20,158 nt of DNA. It comes from a virus. The notes beneath the pieces were generated by a model that saw only the letters and a program-made list of their open reading frames with translations, made no database searches and was not told the DNA's origin. Positions 6,743 to 19,505 of this stretch are shown piece after piece. The stretch spans positions 1 to 20,158 of IMG/VR virus record IMGVR_UViG_3300017744_000210. One strand, given 5' to 3'. A program made the translations under genes and the position numbers. Positions within the stretch are counted from its first letter, which is position 1. Every line of letters begins with the position of its first letter.

Positions 6743-9700
6743 ATGTTTAAATACTTTCCAATATTTTACTACCCAGAAGGAGAAGGATACGGTGAGCAAG
6801 GAGGTGGTCAAGAACAATCTGAAGATCAACAACAAGAAAAAACCTCATCTGGTTCTGGAGAATCATCAGGTGAAGACTCTGGCGGTGGAGCTATTGGAAC
6901 AGCTGTAAGTTACAACACGGATTCAGATATACAGTCTGATACCCCAGATATAAAAGGAGATGTAGTAGAAGGTGATGGAGAAATTAATTTAAGAGTAACT
7001 CCATATTCAGGTTTACCTTCTCAACATAGAAGAGGTCAAATGTTTGGAGCACCTCCACCTCCAGGATTAGCTAAGCATATACAACTACATGCAGGACCTT
7101 ATGTTCCATCAGGTAGTTTATCAGCAGCATTTATAAGAGTACAGGTAAATGCTTATGTTACAGCAGAAGATTCAACTACAGGTGCACTTACTATAGATGC
7201 AGAGTTTGATGAAGTTGTATCTATTAGTGATGTAACACCTTCTAATTCACCCGGGGCACCATATTTTACAACAACTAGTAATAATTATGAAATAGAACCT
7301 TATAATTTAGGATCACAAGCTATACTTTCATACCAATCTTCTAATTATTTAGCTGATCCAACTTTTACAGGTTCAAAACAAATATATTTAGAATACGAAA
7401 ACCTAGGAACAGCTTTACCTTTTTGTCCATTTCAAAGAAAAATTAGAGTAACTTGGGCGGGAGGAGACTCTAGAGAGTTTGAAGTTATTTTACCAGGAAC
7501 AGCACATCTAGATCTTAGTCATGGTAGTGCTAGTCATCCTTCGTATACAAACTCAGTAAGAGCAGACGGGTGTCAAGGAGACGGAACTTCAGGACATGTG
7601 CACACATCAGTAAGTGATGTTTCTATTGGATACGCTGGAAATAATCATGATGACTACATGTATGCAGGATTTTTTAAAACAGTCAATGGTAATAATACTA
7701 CAATGCCTTCTGGTTATCATGAAAATCTTACTTGGAATAATTTTAAATACTATGACTGGGCTTTTGATTCTAATGATGGACCATTTAATTTTGGAGCAAC
7801 TGGTAATCAAGAAGACGGTTATTCAGGAGAACAATATTACAAAGGTTTTATAACAAACCTTGATGGGGATAACAATGTTACTCCAGGAACAGGTAATGTA
7901 GTTAATGCTAGTGACTATTTTAATAATAACATAAGTGGTAATGCATACGATTGGTTAGAAGGAAACTTACTACAACAGTCAATGTTAATTGGTTTTGGTA
8001 TGCCTTATATTTTTGATGCTGCTAATACTGGAGTTGGTTTTAGATTTTCAAACGTACACGTATATTCAGAAGATACTCCAGATTGTACAACAGCACCACC
8101 ACCGGGACCAACCTTTACAGTTTGTACTGATCAAGGATCTACTGATCACTGGTTATTAACAGGAGAAGATTGTAGTGGTGCTAATTTAATAACTCCAATT
8201 AATTATGTTGCAAATCCTAGTCTTGCAACCTTTGTAACACAAAATCATCCAAATACATGTTGTACAGATTGTAATGGGCTATCCCTATCTGCAATAGCTG
8301 TAGATGCAACAACACAAGGAGGAAGTGACGGAATAATAGAGGTTACAGTTTTAGATGGAGGATTTTCAGGAGGAATAGGAACAGCTACTGGAAACGAAAC
8401 AGGTAATGGTAGATATGCATGGACAATTCAAGCATTAAATGCTACTAGCATTGGAGGTTTAGGTACTGGCTCAATGTCAAGTCCAGTTGTTTTAGGGTAT
8501 GGATACGCAACTCATCCATTAGGAGGTCAAGATTATGTTAATACTTTTACATTTGGATTTCAAGAAGACTTAGCTCAAGATGCAGTTACTACAACACAAA
8601 GTTCAGCATTTGCAGGTCTTACAGCTTTGCAAGTTACTGCTAATAGTGTTACATCAACATTAATTCCACCTAGTACAAATAATGGTACTTTTACTACAGG
8701 TCTTATAGCAGGATGCTATAGAATATTTGTAAGAGACGAAAGTGTAAATGGAGCAAATACTACAGTTCCTTGTTACGCATACATAGATGTATGTGTACAA
8801 GATGGAGTTGGTCAAGCAGGATGTACAGATAATGATGCTAGTACAAATGATGGAGCAGCTTTAAATTATAATTCAAATGCAGTAGTAGATGATGGTTCTT
8901 GTTTATATTGTAATGCAAACAATGGAACTTTAATAAATGCTAGTTCTCAACTTGCTCCTACAGCAGGAGAAATAGCGCTAGCTAGTCTAAACTCATTTAT
9001 AGCAACACCTACACTTAGAACAAATTCAAATGATGGTGCAGTTAATATGGCTTTTATTAATCCAACTGCTTTATTTCAACCTTTTATAAATGATGTTGTA
9101 GATGCTAATGGAATGGCAAATGCACAATATACTTTACAATTTTATAACACTGGGAGTAAAGTTGATTGGGATGCTGCACAAAATAGTGCTGCTTCTAATG
9201 ATTTAACTAATTTTTCTACAGTAGGTAGTTTAATAAACAACACTAATTTAGGGTGGTCTGGACTTTGGAATACAGCTAGTATAGGTACAAATATAAATTA
9301 TGGGTATTATGCTGTAAAAGTGGCAATTATTGATCCAGATGCTACAGTAGAAGTAGAACAATGTTATCAAGTATTTTATTTTACAATACCTATAAATGTA
9401 TGTGTAGATGCAAGTGGTAATTATGCCACAGCTATTACAAATACAAATAGTCCTCCTGGTGTATTAATAATACCAGTAGCAGAAGATATTTTATGGTGGC
9501 CTAATCCGTCTATGTGTTCAATATTAAATAGTTTTTGTTGTGCTCAACCTACATTAACAAATCCATCACAGACGTGTCAAACTAATCAATTAGTAGCAGA
9601 TTTTTATTGTGATCCTGTACCAGATTTATTAACCTTTACATTAGAACATGCAGATTGGCAAGGTGTAATAACTGTAGTAAATACAAATACTTATGTGCCT

Positions 9701-11359
9701 ACTAATAATGCTGCATATCAATTTACGTATACGCAAGGACCAACATTAACTTCTACTAACTTTGTAGACGATGGTTTTTATAGAGTAGTACTAACAAGTT
9801 CATACAGTAACTCTCCAGATTGCACACAAACAAGTGCAACTGTACAAATTTCAACTGCTACATTTGGTTGTACTGATTCAACAGCTTTAAATTATGATCC
9901 ATTAGCTAATTGTAATCAAGGATGTATTTATTGTGTGTACGGATGTATGGATCCAGTTGCTATAAATTATGATCCATTAGCAACTTGTGATGATGGAAGT
10001 TGTATAGCTCCAATTCTTGGATGTACAGACCCAACTGCATTAAACTATGACCCAGCTGCTAATACTAATAATGGTTCATGTATATATGGAACATATGGAT
10101 GCACAGACCCTAATGCTTACAATTACAATGTAAATTGTGCAGGTATTACTGTAGTAGCAACTGTAGATGACGGGTGTTGTTTCTTTCCATGTAATCCTAA
10201 TAACCAAGGTAAACCAAGTTCATTTACTACAACAAATGCAACAGGAACTTGTGGAGCAAGTAATGCAGATGGAACAGTAACTGTTAGTATTGCATTTCCT
10301 GGTAGTAATATAATGGCAGGACAAACTAAAACAATAGAATATTTTACAAATGCTGGAGTATCAGTATATGCAGATCCTACTACATATTCTGCAGCTGCAA
10401 CTTCAACTTTTACACAATTAGTTTCTGGAGTATACTATTTTGTTATAACAGATAACTGGGGATGTACAGAAACACAAACTTTTTCAATTAGTAGTACAAC
10501 AGTAACATGTGGTTGTACAGATCCTAATGCTTCAAATTATGATCCAGCTGCAACACTAGATGATGGTTCATGTATTTATGGAGGATGTATAGATCCTAAT
10601 GCTTTAAACTTTAATCCAAATGCAGCGTTTGATGATGGGTCATGTAAATACCCAGCAGTAGTAAGCCCATGTATACCTAGTAATACTAACTCATTAATTA
10701 GATTATTAGAAGCATGTATAGCAAAAAATGGATTTCAGTATTACAATAAGTTAGTTACTGGTCAAGCAGATGATTGTTCTATAATGAATGCTTGGAAAGT
10801 TATTTTAATAGAGTACTTAGTAAGTAAAAGAGGAACTAAATGTATATATAATTGTGCAGACTCTTCAACTGCAAACGTGTCTAGCTTAACTACATGTTCT
10901 TCAAAGTGGATAATAGGAGGACCTAAAACAGGAGCTAACGATCAAGCATTTGCAGGATCAATTATAAATCCAGGACAAGGAACTACAATAACAGATCCAA
11001 ATTTATACTTTGTAGCTGGTAATACTTTGTATTTAGGAGATGTTATAAAAATGCCTAGTGGTAATATATATGAAGTAGTTCCACCAGCAACAAACTTTAC
11101 TGGGGCAAGTGCTAATCCTGAAACTTCTCAAGGAGCACAGTCTGGATACTGGCAGCAATGTGTATCAGGCTTACAAATAAGTTCATTCCCAAACAATGTG
11201 AACTATTTAGATAAATTTAATACATTTGTAGCTAAGTTTTGTGTAGACTGCAATATAGTAGATGAAAACGTAATTAAAAACACTAGATCTTTTCCAGCAT
11301 CAAACAGAGGTAGAACAGGTAGATTGAGTATTGATGGTATTAACGGTTTAGAAATATAA
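6743..11359 (+). CDS. giant virion appendage protein with SprB-like domains and GCTD repeats
   Basis: This 1538-residue protein lacks a signal peptide, so it is best read as a virion-borne fibre or appendage. Residues about 10-50 are a Gly/Glu/Gln/Ser linker; a beta-rich region runs to about 445. Then come several beta-sandwich modules that resemble SprB repeats (DG-x-V-x-V near the start, then G-x-Y-x-V-x-D-x-x-x-C): about 513-688, 760-887 and, clearest, 1165-1256 (DGTVTVSI; SGVYYFVITDNWGC). Interspersed are seven GCTDPxALNYDPxANxDDGSC units at 8819-8908, 9866-10192 and 10511-10651. The acidic DDGSC ends look suited to Ca2+ binding and a disulfide. The last 240 residues form a separate Cys-containing domain. 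SprB is the flavobacterial gliding adhesin, so these are host-like modules. Function is inferred as adsorption. Confidence 0.75.
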   Translation: MFKYFPIFYYPEGEGYGEQGGGQEQSEDQQQEKTSSGSGESSGEDSGGGAIGTAVSYNTDSDIQSDTPDIKGDVVEGDGEINLRVTPYSGLPSQHRRGQMFGAPPPPGLAKHIQLHAGPYVPSGSLSAAFIRVQVNAYVTAEDSTTGALTIDAEFDEVVSISDVTPSNSPGAPYFTTTSNNYEIEPYNLGSQAILSYQSSNYLADPTFTGSKQIYLEYENLGTALPFCPFQRKIRVTWAGGDSREFEVILPGTAHLDLSHGSASHPSYTNSVRADGCQGDGTSGHVHTSVSDVSIGYAGNNHDDYMYAGFFKTVNGNNTTMPSGYHENLTWNNFKYYDWAFDSNDGPFNFGATGNQEDGYSGEQYYKGFITNLDGDNNVTPGTGNVVNASDYFNNNISGNAYDWLEGNLLQQSMLIGFGMPYIFDAANTGVGFRFSNVHVYSEDTPDCTTAPPPGPTFTVCTDQGSTDHWLLTGEDCSGANLITPINYVANPSLATFVTQNHPNTCCTDCNGLSLSAIAVDATTQGGSDGIIEVTVLDGGFSGGIGTATGNETGNGRYAWTIQALNATSIGGLGTGSMSSPVVLGYGYATHPLGGQDYVNTFTFGFQEDLAQDAVTTTQSSAFAGLTALQVTANSVTSTLIPPSTNNGTFTTGLIAGCYRIFVRDESVNGANTTVPCYAYIDVCVQDGVGQAGCTDNDASTNDGAALNYNSNAVVDDGSCLYCNANNGTLINASSQLAPTAGEIALASLNSFIATPTLRTNSNDGAVNMAFINPTALFQPFINDVVDANGMANAQYTLQFYNTGSKVDWDAAQNSAASNDLTNFSTVGSLINNTNLGWSGLWNTASIGTNINYGYYAVKVAIIDPDATVEVEQCYQVFYFTIPINVCVDASGNYATAITNTNSPPGVLIIPVAEDILWWPNPSMCSILNSFCCAQPTLTNPSQTCQTNQLVADFYCDPVPDLLTFTLEHADWQGVITVVNTNTYVPTNNAAYQFTYTQGPTLTSTNFVDDGFYRVVLTSSYSNSPDCTQTSATVQISTATFGCTDSTALNYDPLANCNQGCIYCVYGCMDPVAINYDPLATCDDGSCIAPILGCTDPTALNYDPAANTNNGSCIYGTYGCTDPNAYNYNVNCAGITVVATVDDGCCFFPCNPNNQGKPSSFTTTNATGTCGASNADGTVTVSIAFPGSNIMAGQTKTIEYFTNAGVSVYADPTTYSAAATSTFTQLVSGVYYFVITDNWGCTETQTFSISSTTVTCGCTDPNASNYDPAATLDDGSCIYGGCIDPNALNFNPNAAFDDGSCKYPAVVSPCIPSNTNSLIRLLEACIAKNGFQYYNKLVTGQADDCSIMNAWKVILIEYLVSKRGTKCIYNCADSSTANVSSLTTCSSKWIIGGPKTGANDQAFAGSIINPGQGTTITDPNLYFVAGNTLYLGDVIKMPSGNIYEVVPPATNFTGASANPETSQGAQSGYWQQCVSGLQISSFPNNVNYLDKFNTFVAKFCVDCNIVDENVIKNTRSFPASNRGRTGRLSIDGINGLEI
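9866..10651 (+). repeat. GCTD coding repeats in the giant protein (two clusters)
   Basis: Units start at 9866, 9941, 10019 and 10097 (spacings 75, 78 and 78 bases), then a SprB-like domain intervenes and units resume at 10511 and 10583 (72 bases). A seventh, isolated unit is at 8819-8908. The unit starting at 10097 has an insertion and reads DDGCC instead of DDGSC. These belong to the same family as the repeats at 17214-18377. Confidence 0.85.
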
Positions 11360-13256: not shown

Positions 13257-14315
13257 TTGAAAAGAAAATTATTTACATTAATATTATTAGTTATTTTAAT
13301 TTCTTGTACTGCACCAAAAAAATGTTGCGGACAAATAGATTTTAAAAAAGCTTTTAAATTTTCTACATTTTATGCATCTGTAAACGGAGGTACATCTTTA
13401 TCTGATGAAGATGTATTCTCTGTTAATACAGGAATATTGCAACAAAATGTTATTAGAACACCTTATGATTATAATCTAGCTTTAGGAGTTAGAAAAATAG
13501 CTAGGTTTGGGTATGAGAATAGAGCAAATACGTTCTATGATGGTACAGAAACTAGTTGGTCAGATGGTGCTAATGTAGGTAAGGTATCTGGTTTAGAATT
13601 TTTATTTGAAGCTAATTATAAAAGACAGCAGGGTGTAGATTATTTAGATCAACACCACTTTATTAGATTTGTAGCAGATAAGTACATATTAAAAGGAGAG
13701 TATTTAGAAGATGGGTTTGCGGATATTAAATACTTTGAAACATCTCAGAGATATAGATATAAAGTAAATAATAAAATATCTTTTAATGCTGGACTTGTAC
13801 AAAGACTATCTGAACCTTATGGGTATGATCCTTTAGCAGATTGGATGTTAGGTAATGGTAATTTACATTACACATACTTAGCAATACAAGAAGGATACTC
13901 AATTGATGTATTTAATAATGAATACAAAGACCCTCAAGGTAATATTGTTGCAACAAGTAAAGAAGTATGGGAAGAAGTAGTAATCCCAAACGTATTATAT
14001 AATTATTCAGAAAGAAAAAGAAATGAGTTAGATAATACTATACAACATTCTATAGTATTAGGATTTGATTTTTATTATTATAAGAAAAACTTTTGGGCTC
14101 ATAGTTGGGCTAATGTAATGCCTTATCATTTAGATAATGGTGAGTTTTCTTATGAAAAATACAATGATGGACAATGGCTTGATTATTCTGGAGGTTTAAT
14201 ATTTGGATACAAGTACACTAAAAATTTAGGTGCTTTTGTAGAAGGTAAATACAATAAGTATTGGAATAGAGAGTGGTACGATTTTAAATTTGGAATTAAT
14301 TATATAATATTTTAA
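13257..14315 (+). CDS. putative outer-membrane beta-barrel protein with signal peptide
   Basis: The 352-residue product starts at TTG (13257), one base after the previous stop; no nearer ATG would keep the signal peptide. Residues 1-16 form a Sec signal (MKRK then a hydrophobic core). Cleavage could be at a lipobox, LISC with Cys17, or by signal peptidase I before Gln26 (CCGQ), a common flavobacterial ending. The mature protein is rich in Tyr, Phe and Trp in alternating strands, and its last residues (FGINYIIF) form the aromatic-ending beta-signal recognised by the BAM machinery. Together these point to an outer-membrane barrel. No phage structural motif is visible. It could block adsorption of competing phages or alter permeability; both are inference. 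It overlaps the nuclease gene by one base. Confidence 0.65.
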   Translation: MKRKLFTLILLVILISCTAPKKCCGQIDFKKAFKFSTFYASVNGGTSLSDEDVFSVNTGILQQNVIRTPYDYNLALGVRKIARFGYENRANTFYDGTETSWSDGANVGKVSGLEFLFEANYKRQQGVDYLDQHHFIRFVADKYILKGEYLEDGFADIKYFETSQRYRYKVNNKISFNAGLVQRLSEPYGYDPLADWMLGNGNLHYTYLAIQEGYSIDVFNNEYKDPQGNIVATSKEVWEEVVIPNVLYNYSERKRNELDNTIQHSIVLGFDFYYYKKNFWAHSWANVMPYHLDNGEFSYEKYNDGQWLDYSGGLIFGYKYTKNLGAFVEGKYNKYWNREWYDFKFGINYIIF

Positions 14316-14668
14316 TGTATACATACGTAATAACATTAGACAGAGTTATCGATGGGGACACCATAGATGCTATGATTGATCTAGGATTTGATGTACATGT
14401 TAAAAAAAGAATTAGGTTTATGGGGATAAATACTCCAGAATCTAGAACAAGAGATTTAGAAGAAAAGAAATTAGGACTTGCGGCAAAAGCTAGAGTTGAA
14501 GAACTGCTAACAACATGTTCTTGTATTACTTTAAAATCTCACGGCTCAGGAAAGTTTGGTAGATGTTTAGGAGAACTTTTTATAGAAATAGAAAATGAAG
14601 CCGTAAATTTAAATCAATTATTAATTTCTGAAGGACACGCAGAAGCGTACTTTGGAGGAAAACGTTAA
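14315..14668 (+). CDS. staphylococcal-type nuclease (SNase/thermonuclease fold)
   Basis: This 117-residue protein is a compact SNase domain that would hydrolyse DNA or RNA with Ca2+. The motifs are in order: RVIDGDTID (Asp13, Asp15; matching Asp19 and Asp21 of staphylococcal nuclease), RIRFMGINTPE (Arg34 and Glu42, matching catalytic Arg35 and Glu43) and GKFGRCLGE (Arg83, matching Arg87). Position 39 is Asn where the reference enzyme has Asp40, a metal ligand. There is no signal peptide, so it acts in the infected cell's cytoplasm or is packaged. It starts on the last base of the upstream stop codon, so the two are translationally coupled. Likely roles are host DNA breakdown or nucleotide scavenging. 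Confidence 0.88.
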   Translation: MYTYVITLDRVIDGDTIDAMIDLGFDVHVKKRIRFMGINTPESRTRDLEEKKLGLAAKARVEELLTTCSCITLKSHGSGKFGRCLGELFIEIENEAVNLNQLLISEGHAEAYFGGKR

Positions 14669-14858: not shown

Positions 14859-15140
14859 ATGGCAAAAGAACTAAGCGAAGATACAGCTGTACAATTAAGT
14901 CTAAAAACATTAGGAGGGGTGGCCTTTTTGATAGCTACCTTAGTTGGTATGTGGTTTACATTACAGGCAGATATAAACGAAGCAAAAGAACTACCGGTTC
15001 CTCCGGATCCTGAAGTTTCACGTATGGAGTTTGATATGAAAGACCAAATGATACGTAATACTATTATAACTACACAAAAAGATGTAGAAGAAATAAAAGG
15101 TACTCTTGAGAAAATAGAAGATAAATTATACAATAGATAA
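14859..15140 (+). CDS. one-TM coiled-coil membrane protein (holin-like candidate)
   Basis: The 93-residue product has one strong membrane segment at about 17-38 (GGVAFLIATLVGMWFTLQ) after a short hydrophilic N-terminus. A proline-containing hinge follows (ELPVPPDPE, about 44-52), then a charged C-terminal helix (about 55-93) likely to be a coiled coil. This layout is common among small phage inner-membrane proteins, including some holins and antiholins, but it has no diagnostic motif. The DUF5675 gene downstream would supply a possible lysis partner. An envelope tether for the exported proteins next to it is an alternative. Its stop shares one base with the next start (TAATG), indicating translational coupling to the thioredoxin-like gene. 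Confidence 0.6.
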   Translation: MAKELSEDTAVQLSLKTLGGVAFLIATLVGMWFTLQADINEAKELPVPPDPEVSRMEFDMKDQMIRNTIITTQKDVEEIKGTLEKIEDKLYNR

Positions 15141-15469
15141 TGAAAAAACTAATTTGTTTACTTATATTATTTTTTATACTTAATTCTGCTAATGCACAAA
15201 TTGTAGTAACAGAATTTAATGCTGAGTGGAATGCCTCTAATAAAGTTGCGTGGGTAGACAAACTATCTGATTGTGATATTGCAAAAGTTGATATTACAAA
15301 AGAAACAGCTTTGCAACAAAAACATAAAGTAGTTATAGTACCTACTATAATTATATTTAAAGATGGTGAAGAAATAAAAAGGTTTCAAGCAGATCTTAGT
15401 TTTAAAATGCTTGCAACAAGAAAAGAGATACAAAACTTTATTAATGAACAAATAATGTCAGATTTTTAA
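15140..15469 (+). CDS. exported thioredoxin-fold protein lacking the CxxC active site
   Basis: The 109-residue product has a clear signal peptide: MKK, a hydrophobic core at about 4-14 and an ANA cleavage site before Gln20, placing the mature 90-residue protein in the periplasm or outside. The mature part has the thioredoxin layout: strand, FNAEW, then the active-site position, KVDITKE, and VVIVPTIIIFKDGEE with the cis-Pro at residue 68. Where thioredoxins read WCGPCK, this reads WNASNK (30-35), so both catalytic cysteines are Asn. It cannot do thiol-disulfide exchange by the usual route; a binding or chaperone role is more likely. The only mature Cys is Cys45. It is coupled to the upstream membrane protein and lies one base before the T9SS protein gene. 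Confidence 0.75.
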   Translation: MKKLICLLILFFILNSANAQIVVTEFNAEWNASNKVAWVDKLSDCDIAKVDITKETALQQKHKVVIVPTIIIFKDGEEIKRFQADLSFKMLATRKEIQNFINEQIMSDF

Positions 15470-15470
15470 A

Positions 15471-18400
15471 ATGAAAAAATTATTATTAATATTATTATTA
15501 TTACCTTTTATAGGAATAGGACAAAATACTTGGGTAAACTACCAAGTACAATATGATTTTTATGCACCAGCAGAATCACACTTTTTTATGGTATCTGATG
15601 CTAATGGTGATACAGCTATGTTTCATCAACCAACTACTCCTTATGAGTTTTTAGATACTACAATATTTATAAACTCTGGTAATTACACTGTATCTTTAGT
15701 TGATAGCTTTGGTGATGGATGGATTTCTAATCAACCAGCATTTTTTAGAATGCGTAATTTATGTCAAGGATTAATAATAAACTGGGATCCAGTATTAGGT
15801 TCTTTTTACTTAAGAGATACTACTGTAAACATATTGCCTTGTGCACCACCAGTATATGGGTGCATGGACCCAAACGCTTTAAATTACGACCCGTTAGCTA
15901 CAATAGATGACGGTAGTTGTACATATCCACCTTGTAATGGTATTATAAACGACACAGCTTGGCAAATGTGTTGGGGAGCTCAAGCAGCTATATCATGGGA
16001 GTGGGAAACAAATAACAATACAAACTGCGCTGTAATAGAATTACATTATGGATCTGCAAATGGTTACAACATAACAATACCTGGGTTTTGGCCTAGTGGT
16101 GGTTGGAGTAACTTTGCTATAGGTGCAGGACCTGGACAAATGCCTCCTAATTGGAATGAAGAACATTATATGGTATTAGAGTTTATTGATGGAACTTTAT
16201 CAGACACAATGTTTTTTACACCAACAGCTTGTATACCAGGTTGTACAGATCCAATGCAAGAATCATATAATCCTTGGGCAACAACTGATGACGGATCATG
16301 CTCAGGTACTACATGTGATACAGCAACTGAATATCAAATAACAATGGAGCTTACACTTGACAATTGGCCAGGTGAAACTTCATGGATAATGAACAGTGGT
16401 GGTATAATAGATCAAGCACCACAAGGTACTTATAACTTTAATGATATAGGACAAACATTTACTTATACTTTTTGTATAGATCAAAACATAGGCTTTGAAT
16501 TAATACTAAATGATAGTTATGGTGATGGTATGGCTGGAGGAGCTTTAAATGGTAATGTAGTTATATATGACTGTAACGGTGATACTATATGGAATTTACC
16601 TGATCCTAATTTTGGGACTGTAACTTATTTAGGACCACAAAATGGTGTACCTTGTAACACAACCCCAGATATATATGGTTGTACAGATGATGATTACGTA
16701 GAATATGTTGATAGCGCAAATGTTGATGATGGTAGTTGTTTAACATTACACACTTACGGTTGTACTGATCCTGCTGCATTTAATTATAATCCAAACGCTA
16801 CAATTATGGATTTAGTGCCTGATTGTAATTATACATTGATATTAGAAGACGATGCAGGTGATGGTTGGGGTAATTCATATTTAGGAGTATCACAAGGTCA
16901 AATGTTATGGAACTTTACAATGGGACCTGGTTCTTACGCTGATACATTTAATTTAATATTAGATTCAGATGCACCTGTAACAATATATTACTTTGAGATA
17001 GGTGGACCACAAACACCACCTGAAGAAGTACAGTTTCAAACATGGCATAATTCTTTTAAACTTGTAAATGCTAATGACATTGTATTATTAGAAGAAGGTA
17101 CAAATCCTTTTGCTAATAATGGTCAAGGCGCTTTACAAGCATTTGATAGTCCTTTTTGGTACACTTATTCTGCAGTTCCTTATTGTGGTGATTATTGCAT
17201 ACCTACAATATTAGGGTGTATGGACAGTACAGCTTTTAATTATGTAGATTCTGCTAATACAGATGATGGTTCTTGTATACCTGTAGTATTAGGTTGTACT
17301 AATCCACTTGCATTTAATTACGATGCATTTGCTAACGTAGATGATAGTAGTTGTGTATCTACAATTATTGGATGTATGGATTCATTAGCGTTTAATTACA
17401 ATCCTTTTGCAAATGTTAATGATCCAGCTTCATGTGTACCTGTTATATATGGATGCATGGATGATACTATGTTTAACTATAATCCTGCAGCAAACACACC
17501 TGACACTTGTATACCAGTAATATTTGGATGTACAGATGCATTAGCATTTAATTATGATAGTTTAGCTAACACTAATAATAACTCTTGTATACCATTTATA
17601 TATGGGTGTACAAATCCTGCAGCATTAAATTATAATCCGCTAGCAAATACTGATGATTCAACATGTATAGGTGTAGTATATGGGTGTACTGATCCTACAA
17701 TGTGGAATTATAATCAATTAGCTAATACAGACAATGGCTCCTGTATTCCATTTATTTATGGATGTACAGACTCAACTATGTTTAACTATGATCCTTTGGC
17801 TAATACAGATAATAATACTTGCATACCTTTTATATACGGATGTACTAACCCTATAGCTTTAAACTTTGATCAGAATGCTAATACAGACGATTTTAGTTGT
17901 ATATTACCAATCTACGGATGTACAGACAGTACAATGTTTAATTACGATCCGTTAGCAAATGTAGACAATGGAACATGCATACCATACATATATGGGTGCA
18001 CTAATCCAGTAGCACTTAATTATAATCCAAATGCAAACACAGATGACTTTTCTTGTATACTACCTATATATGGTTGTATGGATAGTACTATGTTTAATTA
18101 TAACCCACTAGCAAATGTTGATAACGGAAGTTGTATTCCTTTTATATATGGTTGTACTAATCCTAATAGTATCAACTATAATCCAATGGCTAATACTGAG
18201 GATTTTAGCTGCATTCCTTTTGTTTATGGGTGCACTGATTCTACAGCTCTTAATTATGACTCATTGGCTAACACAGATAATGGCTCATGTATTACGGCGG
18301 TTGAGGGATGCATGGATGCAAATGCTTTTAACTATGATGCGTTTGCTAATGTAAATGACTCTGCATCTTGTTTATATGATGCACAATGTATTACAGGACC

Positions 18401-18671
18401 AGGTAATCCTTATTGGTTAAACGATCTTTGTTATGCTTGGGTTATTGAAGTAGATGATTACTGTTGTAATAATGCATGGGATAATATATGTCAATTAACA
18501 TACGATCATTGTAATGATAATTGGTCAGGACCTTTACCTAAAAGGACAGATAAAAATTTAATACAAGTTACAGATTTACTAGGTAGACCTGTAAACAAAA
18601 TTAAAAATCAGCTTCTATTCTACAGATATAATGATGGAAGCGTAAATAGAAAAATAATAATTAAAAAATAA
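15471..18671 (+). CDS. phage-encoded T9SS cargo: secreted GCTD-repeat surface protein
   Basis: The 1066-residue product is built for export. It has a Sec signal peptide (MKKLLLILLLLPFIGIGQ, ending at Gln18) and, at about 1024-1066, a type IX secretion sorting domain of the Bacteroidetes kind (VTDLLGRPV, then the KIIIKK end). Between them are three domains marked by D-x-x-GDG-W/M motifs (residues 78-84, 348-354, 460-466), four scattered GCTD units (starting at 15858, 16239, 16677, 16758) and a 15-unit array at 17214-18377. A Cys-rich module (DDYCCNNAWDNIC) precedes the sorting domain. Such architecture is typical of secreted or cell-surface flavobacterial proteins and unexpected in a phage virion operon. 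It should reach the outer face of the host, where it might act in adhesion, surface masking or superinfection exclusion. Confidence 0.8.
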   Translation: MKKLLLILLLLPFIGIGQNTWVNYQVQYDFYAPAESHFFMVSDANGDTAMFHQPTTPYEFLDTTIFINSGNYTVSLVDSFGDGWISNQPAFFRMRNLCQGLIINWDPVLGSFYLRDTTVNILPCAPPVYGCMDPNALNYDPLATIDDGSCTYPPCNGIINDTAWQMCWGAQAAISWEWETNNNTNCAVIELHYGSANGYNITIPGFWPSGGWSNFAIGAGPGQMPPNWNEEHYMVLEFIDGTLSDTMFFTPTACIPGCTDPMQESYNPWATTDDGSCSGTTCDTATEYQITMELTLDNWPGETSWIMNSGGIIDQAPQGTYNFNDIGQTFTYTFCIDQNIGFELILNDSYGDGMAGGALNGNVVIYDCNGDTIWNLPDPNFGTVTYLGPQNGVPCNTTPDIYGCTDDDYVEYVDSANVDDGSCLTLHTYGCTDPAAFNYNPNATIMDLVPDCNYTLILEDDAGDGWGNSYLGVSQGQMLWNFTMGPGSYADTFNLILDSDAPVTIYYFEIGGPQTPPEEVQFQTWHNSFKLVNANDIVLLEEGTNPFANNGQGALQAFDSPFWYTYSAVPYCGDYCIPTILGCMDSTAFNYVDSANTDDGSCIPVVLGCTNPLAFNYDAFANVDDSSCVSTIIGCMDSLAFNYNPFANVNDPASCVPVIYGCMDDTMFNYNPAANTPDTCIPVIFGCTDALAFNYDSLANTNNNSCIPFIYGCTNPAALNYNPLANTDDSTCIGVVYGCTDPTMWNYNQLANTDNGSCIPFIYGCTDSTMFNYDPLANTDNNTCIPFIYGCTNPIALNFDQNANTDDFSCILPIYGCTDSTMFNYDPLANVDNGTCIPYIYGCTNPVALNYNPNANTDDFSCILPIYGCMDSTMFNYNPLANVDNGSCIPFIYGCTNPNSINYNPMANTEDFSCIPFVYGCTDSTALNYDSLANTDNGSCITAVEGCMDANAFNYDAFANVNDSASCLYDAQCITGPGNPYWLNDLCYAWVIEVDDYCCNNAWDNICQLTYDHCNDNWSGPLPKRTDKNLIQVTDLLGRPVNKIKNQLLFYRYNDGSVNRKIIIKK
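17214..18377 (+). repeat. 15-unit GCTD coding tandem array
   Basis: Fifteen units of about 26 codons (78 bases) follow one another, each reading G-C-[TM]-[DN]-x-x-x-x-N-[YF]-[ND]-x-x-A-N-x-x-x-x-[ST]-C. Units 1 and 15 start 1092 bases apart, exactly fourteen times 78: the 27-codon third unit is offset by the 25-codon fourth. Within the array, TDSTMFNYxPLAN and TNPxxLNxxxNAN types alternate. Each unit holds two cysteines and an acidic loop that could bind calcium. Synonymous codons differ between adjacent units. Confidence 0.9.
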
Positions 18672-19043: not shown

Positions 19044-19505
19044 ATGAAACTACAGGTATTACGATTCAGTAGTGAGTCTGATTCTACTAATGGCTTACTT
19101 TTAGATGTGACAGATGGGATAAATTTTCTTGCTTATACTTTAGAAGATGAGTATAGAAAAAAGAAAAGAAGTAAAGAGACAAGAATACCTGCTGGAACAT
19201 ATGAAATAAAATTAAGAAATGAAGGAGGATTCAACCAAAGGTACAGTAAAAAGTATTCTCGTATCCATAGGGGTATGTTGCATATTATTGATGTACCTGG
19301 TTTTGAGTACATTCTCATTCATGTTGGCAATAGTGATGAGCATACTGCAGGCTGTTTACTTGTGGGTGATAGTCAAGAAAACAACCAAGTAAATAAGAAT
19401 GGTTTTATAGGGAGTTCAGGCAATGCATATAAGAGAATTTACCCACTTATAGCAGATGCCGTAGAAAATGAAGGGGTAACAATACAATATATAGATTTAG
19501 ATTAA
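19044..19505 (+). CDS. DUF5675 family protein
   Basis: The 153-residue product matches the DUF5675 pattern. It has a strand-rich N-terminus, RIPAGTYEI (47-55), a conserved core VPGFEYILIHVGN (84-96) and T-A-GCLLVG (101-108), with a C-terminal SSGNAYKRIYPL helix. The His93 and Cys104 pair, in HVGN and TxGC, recalls the His/Cys arrangement of L,D-transpeptidase-like folds, so action on peptidoglycan is plausible though unproven. DUF5675 genes are frequent in phages and integrated elements, often near lysis or tail genes. There is no signal peptide; access to the wall would need a holin, and the one-TM protein at 14859-15140 is a candidate. Confidence 0.8.
   Translation: MKLQVLRFSSESDSTNGLLLDVTDGINFLAYTLEDEYRKKKRSKETRIPAGTYEIKLRNEGGFNQRYSKKYSRIHRGMLHIIDVPGFEYILIHVGNSDEHTAGCLLVGDSQENNQVNKNGFIGSSGNAYKRIYPLIADAVENEGVTIQYIDLD

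Follow-up and report, generated by a model that had tools for sequence, protein, structure and literature searches.

Why would a phage encode an exported thioredoxin-fold protein without the two catalytic cysteines, and is such a gene a decayed copy or one kept for another task? This question is raised by a gene at 15140-15469 of IMG/VR record IMGVR_UViG_3300017744_000210, which we analysed from position 1 to 20,158 (20,158 nucleotides, hereafter the window). Because its capsid gene at 1227-2681 matches PF23898 (E = 3.2e-82), the window phage was taken to be crAss-type. The capsid gene, the thioredoxin-fold (Trx) gene and the Trx gene's neighbours described below are all encoded on the plus strand. 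The first-pass annotation, made from the sequence alone, had proposed a protein-binding or chaperone role, for instance towards the disulfide-rich repeat protein encoded next to it. We found no close Trx relative among isolated phages, where the best match was partial with an E-value of about 5e-3, and no literature on cysteine-less thioredoxins in phages.

The translated product is 109 aa long and begins MKKLICLLILFFILNSANA-QIVVTEFNAEWNASNKVAWV..., with a Pfam Thioredoxin match (PF00085) at E = 6.6e-8, above the gathering score. The same match was observed in all 81 family members scanned, while NCBIfam TIGR01068 scored 32.1 on the window protein against a cut-off of 96.8. An AlphaFold model of the mature domain with 81 sequences reached a pLDDT of 94.8 and a pTM of 0.85, and its PDB matches were thioredoxins (best E 4.8e-6, TM about 0.73-0.77). 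An earlier model, which included the signal peptide and used 17 sequences, packed poorly (pTM 0.43) and was set aside. The product as modelled thus has a thioredoxin fold, the outcome that had been claimed, with model and PDB comparison both coming out thioredoxin-like. The mature protein begins at strand beta-2, and the classical beta-1/alpha-1 is absent. In the translation, W30-N31-A-S-N34-K stands at the position of thioredoxin WCGPCK, as previously read, with N31-A-S-N34 (15230-15241) at the C-x-x-C position. The cis-proline reported at residue 68 is likewise present, as P68 in V-P-T (15341-15343), and this position is invariant in two family alignments (A1 and A4). The FxAEW strand described as kept is found as FNAEW, but with Asn at the Trp28-equivalent, and the Asp26-equivalent in the family is H, E, Q or Y. 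Judged from these residues, thiol-disulfide exchange at the usual site is impossible for this protein.

A survey of homologues for the NASN-type site, suggested in the first-pass annotation, ruled out that 15140-15469 is a decayed copy of a CxxC protein. None of 184 distinct relatives had CxxC, while 182 had N-x-x-N (174 by pattern, plus eight out-of-register members read by eye); the two exceptions were L153 (N..K) and L136 (S..Q). N31 was found in 180 and N34 in 179 of 181 members, with residues 27, 31 and 34 each being Asn in 179-180 of them. The AAT and AAC codons for these residues interchange freely across the family, in many combinations, and a constant residue over varying codons points to purifying selection on the asparagines. 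The loss of both cysteines had therefore been correctly noticed but understated, as NxxN is the conserved norm of a large phage family. Searches of viral contigs returned 34 relatives from the single sequence and at least 428 from the alignment. A distant member from a Flavobacteriales-order genome (L258) reads YWAGWNDKN, keeping the Trp28 position as well as NxxN. Canonical WCGPC thioredoxins that some of these phages also encode (e.g. L025, L052, L056, L061) are separate genes lacking module features and were rejected as family members. Such a WCGPC thioredoxin, without a signal peptide, was seen in the L025, L052, L056, L061, L081, L093 and L038 loci, which thus encode redox-active copies alongside redox-dead ones. 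In L115, L116, L153, L173, L187 and L224, the mature N-terminal region was also observed to hold an additional pair of Cys residues (e.g. QNICKTDVCVVEFNAGWN).

The signal peptide that had been claimed covers residues 1-19 (15140-15196), ending in NSANA, with predicted cleavage before Gln20. Such a Gln right after the cleavage site is the Bacteroidota Q-rule (PMC5837995), and of the 86 family members checked, 85 have it at this position. By these sequence features, the Trx-fold protein is most likely secreted to the host periplasm.

Clustering of neighbouring genes gave the Trx gene two constant partners, c1 (about 350 aa across its family) and c2 (about 93 aa). In the window, c1 is a 352-aa exported protein (13257-14315) and c2 a 93-aa membrane protein (14859-15140), whose stop codon shares one base with the Trx start. 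A SNase-type nuclease, identified by domain match, lies between them (14315-14668); it was present in 24 of 110 loci and is not a constant part of the module. All 183 loci have c2 and Trx on the same strand, and the median distance between the two genes is 0 nt. When loci were found via c1 alone or c2 alone, the Trx gene was present in 74 of 80 and 77 of 79, respectively, counts that are not fully independent because the two sets share contigs. In all eight loci without it, the available sequence stops short of the expected Trx position.

By sequence, neither c1 nor c2 matched a known family in Pfam or the PDB, and no relatives of either were found among isolated phages. A host origin of c1 was rejected, given that a match occurred in one of 296 order-level genomes, on the same contig as Trx and c2 matches. 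The export of c1, its lack of a transmembrane helix and the C-terminal Phe of most copies suggest a putative outer-membrane beta-barrel. A strand-alternation test gave 19 against 18.1 +/- 2.3 in shuffled sequences, no better than chance, and the outer-membrane placement is therefore kept as putative. The window copy carries a lipobox-like LISC; such signals were seen in some crAss-type copies only, the others having ordinary signal peptides with Gln. For c2, one hydrophobic segment (KD-19 maximum 1.97) is predicted as a single transmembrane helix, followed by a helical, charged C-terminus of coiled-coil type. It contains no Cys, and its charges leave the topology unfixed.

Downstream, 1 nt after the Trx stop, begins the gene for a secreted Cys-rich protein with GCTDxxAxNY repeats (15471-18671), a putative cargo of the type IX secretion system (T9SS). 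The window cargo has a Sec signal peptide, MKKLLLILLLLPFIGIGQ, and signal peptides were recognised by pattern in 109 of 118 cargos. Among distinct loci whose flanks reach 5.5 kb or more on each side, all 51 encode a protein with a T9SS-type C-terminus, as recognised by T9SS-tail profiles seeded on these same loci. All 123 cargos examined were Cys-rich (4.5-6.9 % Cys), with at least four repeats each. These counts lend indirect support to the link to the adjoining disulfide-rich repeat protein that had been suggested, but not as an exclusive one, as c1 and especially c2 are linked to Trx at least as tightly, and of 97 cargos encoded downstream, only 41 are found 60 nt or less from the Trx stop.

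All six cargo relatives tested pass the TIGR04183 and PF18962 cut-offs, while the window cargo's shorter C-terminal sorting-type tail (LIQVTDLLGRPVNKIKNQLLFYRYNDGSVNRKIIIKK; 18558-18668) was missed by both. When 60 Flavobacteriales-order genomes were scanned with an alignment of this tail, 23 had matches, as many as 49 in a single genome, and the matches read as examples lay at the extreme C-terminus. The T9SS translocon protein SprA was present in 10 of 10 of these putative host-type genomes that were tested. The window-type tail is possibly an undescribed T9SS sorting-tail variant. Its pattern, ..DLLGRxxxxxNxLLFYIYDDGTVEKKII.., is the one that recurs in these small Flavobacteriales-order genomes having SprA. 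Elsewhere in the window, a 1538-aa protein with no evident signal peptide (6743-11359) shares its GCTDPxAxNY repeats with the secreted cargo; the repeat is used in one likely virion protein and one exported protein. In locus L004 (6384-7418), and also in L051, the gene directly behind the NxxN gene encodes an Omp28-like protein (NCBIfam NF033782, E = 1.6e-21) with a cysteine site and a similar C-terminal tail.

Summarised over carriers, a crAss-type capsid was found in 14 of 44 records. Four of the other 25 records tested had a T4-type Gp23 capsid; no capsid was found in the rest, many of which are fragments, and none of the non-crAss carriers had an HK97-type capsid. Both crAss-type and T4-type phages carry the module, in differing gene orders, which indicates selection for the gene set and not mere inherited neighbourhood. 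Module sequences are 55-70 % identical across these carriers, and such identity between phages so different suggests exchange between lineages. Searches of isolated phages did not find the module in any of them, and the collections scanned were mostly marine metagenomes. On sequence grounds, Trx, c1, c2 and the Cys-rich protein with a T9SS tail constitute an envelope module of four proteins that is conserved among marine Bacteroidota phages. Two further observations concern the carriers: the Gp23-type capsid match in the L038 record (G010, 150626-152065) has one in-frame TAA, which could reflect a sequencing error, an interruption or recoding, and a DUF5675 protein in the late region of the window (19044-19505) has weak Tlde1 similarity and is a candidate cell-wall enzyme.

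Since the redox site is lost while the fold is kept, and the protein is exported and tied to an envelope and surface set, a binding role is the simplest reading. We favour a redox-inactive periplasmic adaptor or holdase-type chaperone serving a phage-encoded surface-display module, an explanation we consider plausible while stopping just short of calling it probable. Secreted to the host periplasm as a binding protein, Trx would take up an extended peptide from one of its module partners in the groove that the Asn pair and the cis-Pro loop line. That partner is probably the repeat cargo, whose large size, repeats and richness in disulfides make it an attractive client, although c2 could be the true partner, given that its linkage to Trx is tighter than that of the cargo. 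Trx might then help pass the cargo to the host T9SS, and the infected cell would display it on the surface, where surface masking, superinfection exclusion and adhesion are candidate roles. For peptide binding, the identity of the partner, display and any benefit to the phage, this is what we infer from the module as a whole. We put forward more hesitantly the broader proposal of a dedicated system, common to unrelated marine Bacteroidota phages, that loads a Cys-rich surface protein into the host T9SS; the NxxN thioredoxin would be the chaperone for this cargo in the periplasm, and two new envelope proteins would also belong to the system.

As the main rival reading, the same genes could instead form a lysis module that stands in for known spanins: an i-spanin-like c2, c1 as its outer-membrane partner and the Trx-fold protein as periplasmic coupler would break open the outer membrane when infection ends. 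The predicted layout of c2, with one transmembrane helix and a C-terminal coiled coil, fits an i-spanin, and the report that Bacteroidetes phages use unimolecular spanins only (PMC12596118) makes a hidden spanin system conceivable. Holin-like, endolysin or similar genes near the module in 67 of 110 loci leave room for such a role, but this proximity is weak evidence because most phages have their lysis genes grouped with the late genes. No conserved lipoprotein partner accompanies c2, which itself lacks the Cys present in 507 of 528 two-component spanins (PMC6139136), and the invariant T9SS-type surface protein would go unexplained. A lysis role seems unlikely to us.

We regard as very improbable that the protein targets a host periplasmic oxidoreductase, the alternative partner named in the first-pass annotation, and acts on it as decoy or inhibitor, a Cys-less fold filling the partner site of a DsbD-like protein or reductase and altering periplasmic redox chemistry during infection. 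The fold and cis-Pro surface are intact and redox chemistry is absent, as such a decoy would have it, but the Asp26 and Trp28 equivalents are also changed, so the surface for redox partners is not well preserved, and the obligatory linkage to c1, c2 and cargo would be unexplained. A superinfection-exclusion or receptor-masking complex, with Trx as a structural subunit bridging c2 and c1 and no chaperone role, draws support from components predicted for the inner membrane, periplasm, outer membrane and surface, and from a module common to unrelated phages. Neither an exclusion phenotype nor a known homologue speaks for it, and we would not expect it to hold. For the module as a whole it is compatible with the periplasmic adaptor or chaperone that we favour; the two readings part only over what the Trx-fold protein does.

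With Trx as an adaptor or chaperone, the family would be a clear case of fold reuse for binding, as the thioredoxin fold is strongly selected yet the redox site is lost throughout. The proteins that always accompany it, a T9SS-type surface protein among them, suggest that abundant marine viruses use the host secretion system to rebuild the cell surface of infected Bacteroidota, and constant co-encoding suggests a small virus-borne kit for this remodelling. Through the module, the function of several uncharacterised proteins that occur in hundreds of viral contigs also becomes open to experimental testing.

Compared with thioredoxin (PF00085; TIGR01068), the Trx-fold protein shares the fold, the cis-Pro loop and the FxAxW strand end, but it has NxxN for CxxC and Asn for Trp28, lacks beta1-alpha1 and is exported. 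Redox-inactive chaperones such as ERp29 and the PDI b' domains have a thioredoxin fold without catalytic Cys and act in the secretory compartment. The phage protein resembles them in lacking these cysteines and in its predicted place in a secretory compartment, a likeness of fold, with client binding putative; unlike them, it is single-domain, phage-encoded and marked by a conserved Asn pair. Two-component spanins such as lambda Rz/Rz1 (PMC6139136) resemble the module in one component, the small membrane protein c2 with its predicted coiled coil, whereas the module has no conserved o-spanin lipoprotein, a c2 without Cys, and extra Trx-fold and T9SS components. Finally, the only earlier report of phage-encoded T9SS cargo that we found concerns one phage, Cryophage, whose proteins with T9SS type A sorting domains were termed a unique occurrence (PMC7468147). 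Phage-encoded proteins with T9SS sorting domains are common to both cases, but the Cryophage cargos are variable and of enzyme type, while here a constant Cys-rich repeat cargo belongs to a conserved module in many marine phages.
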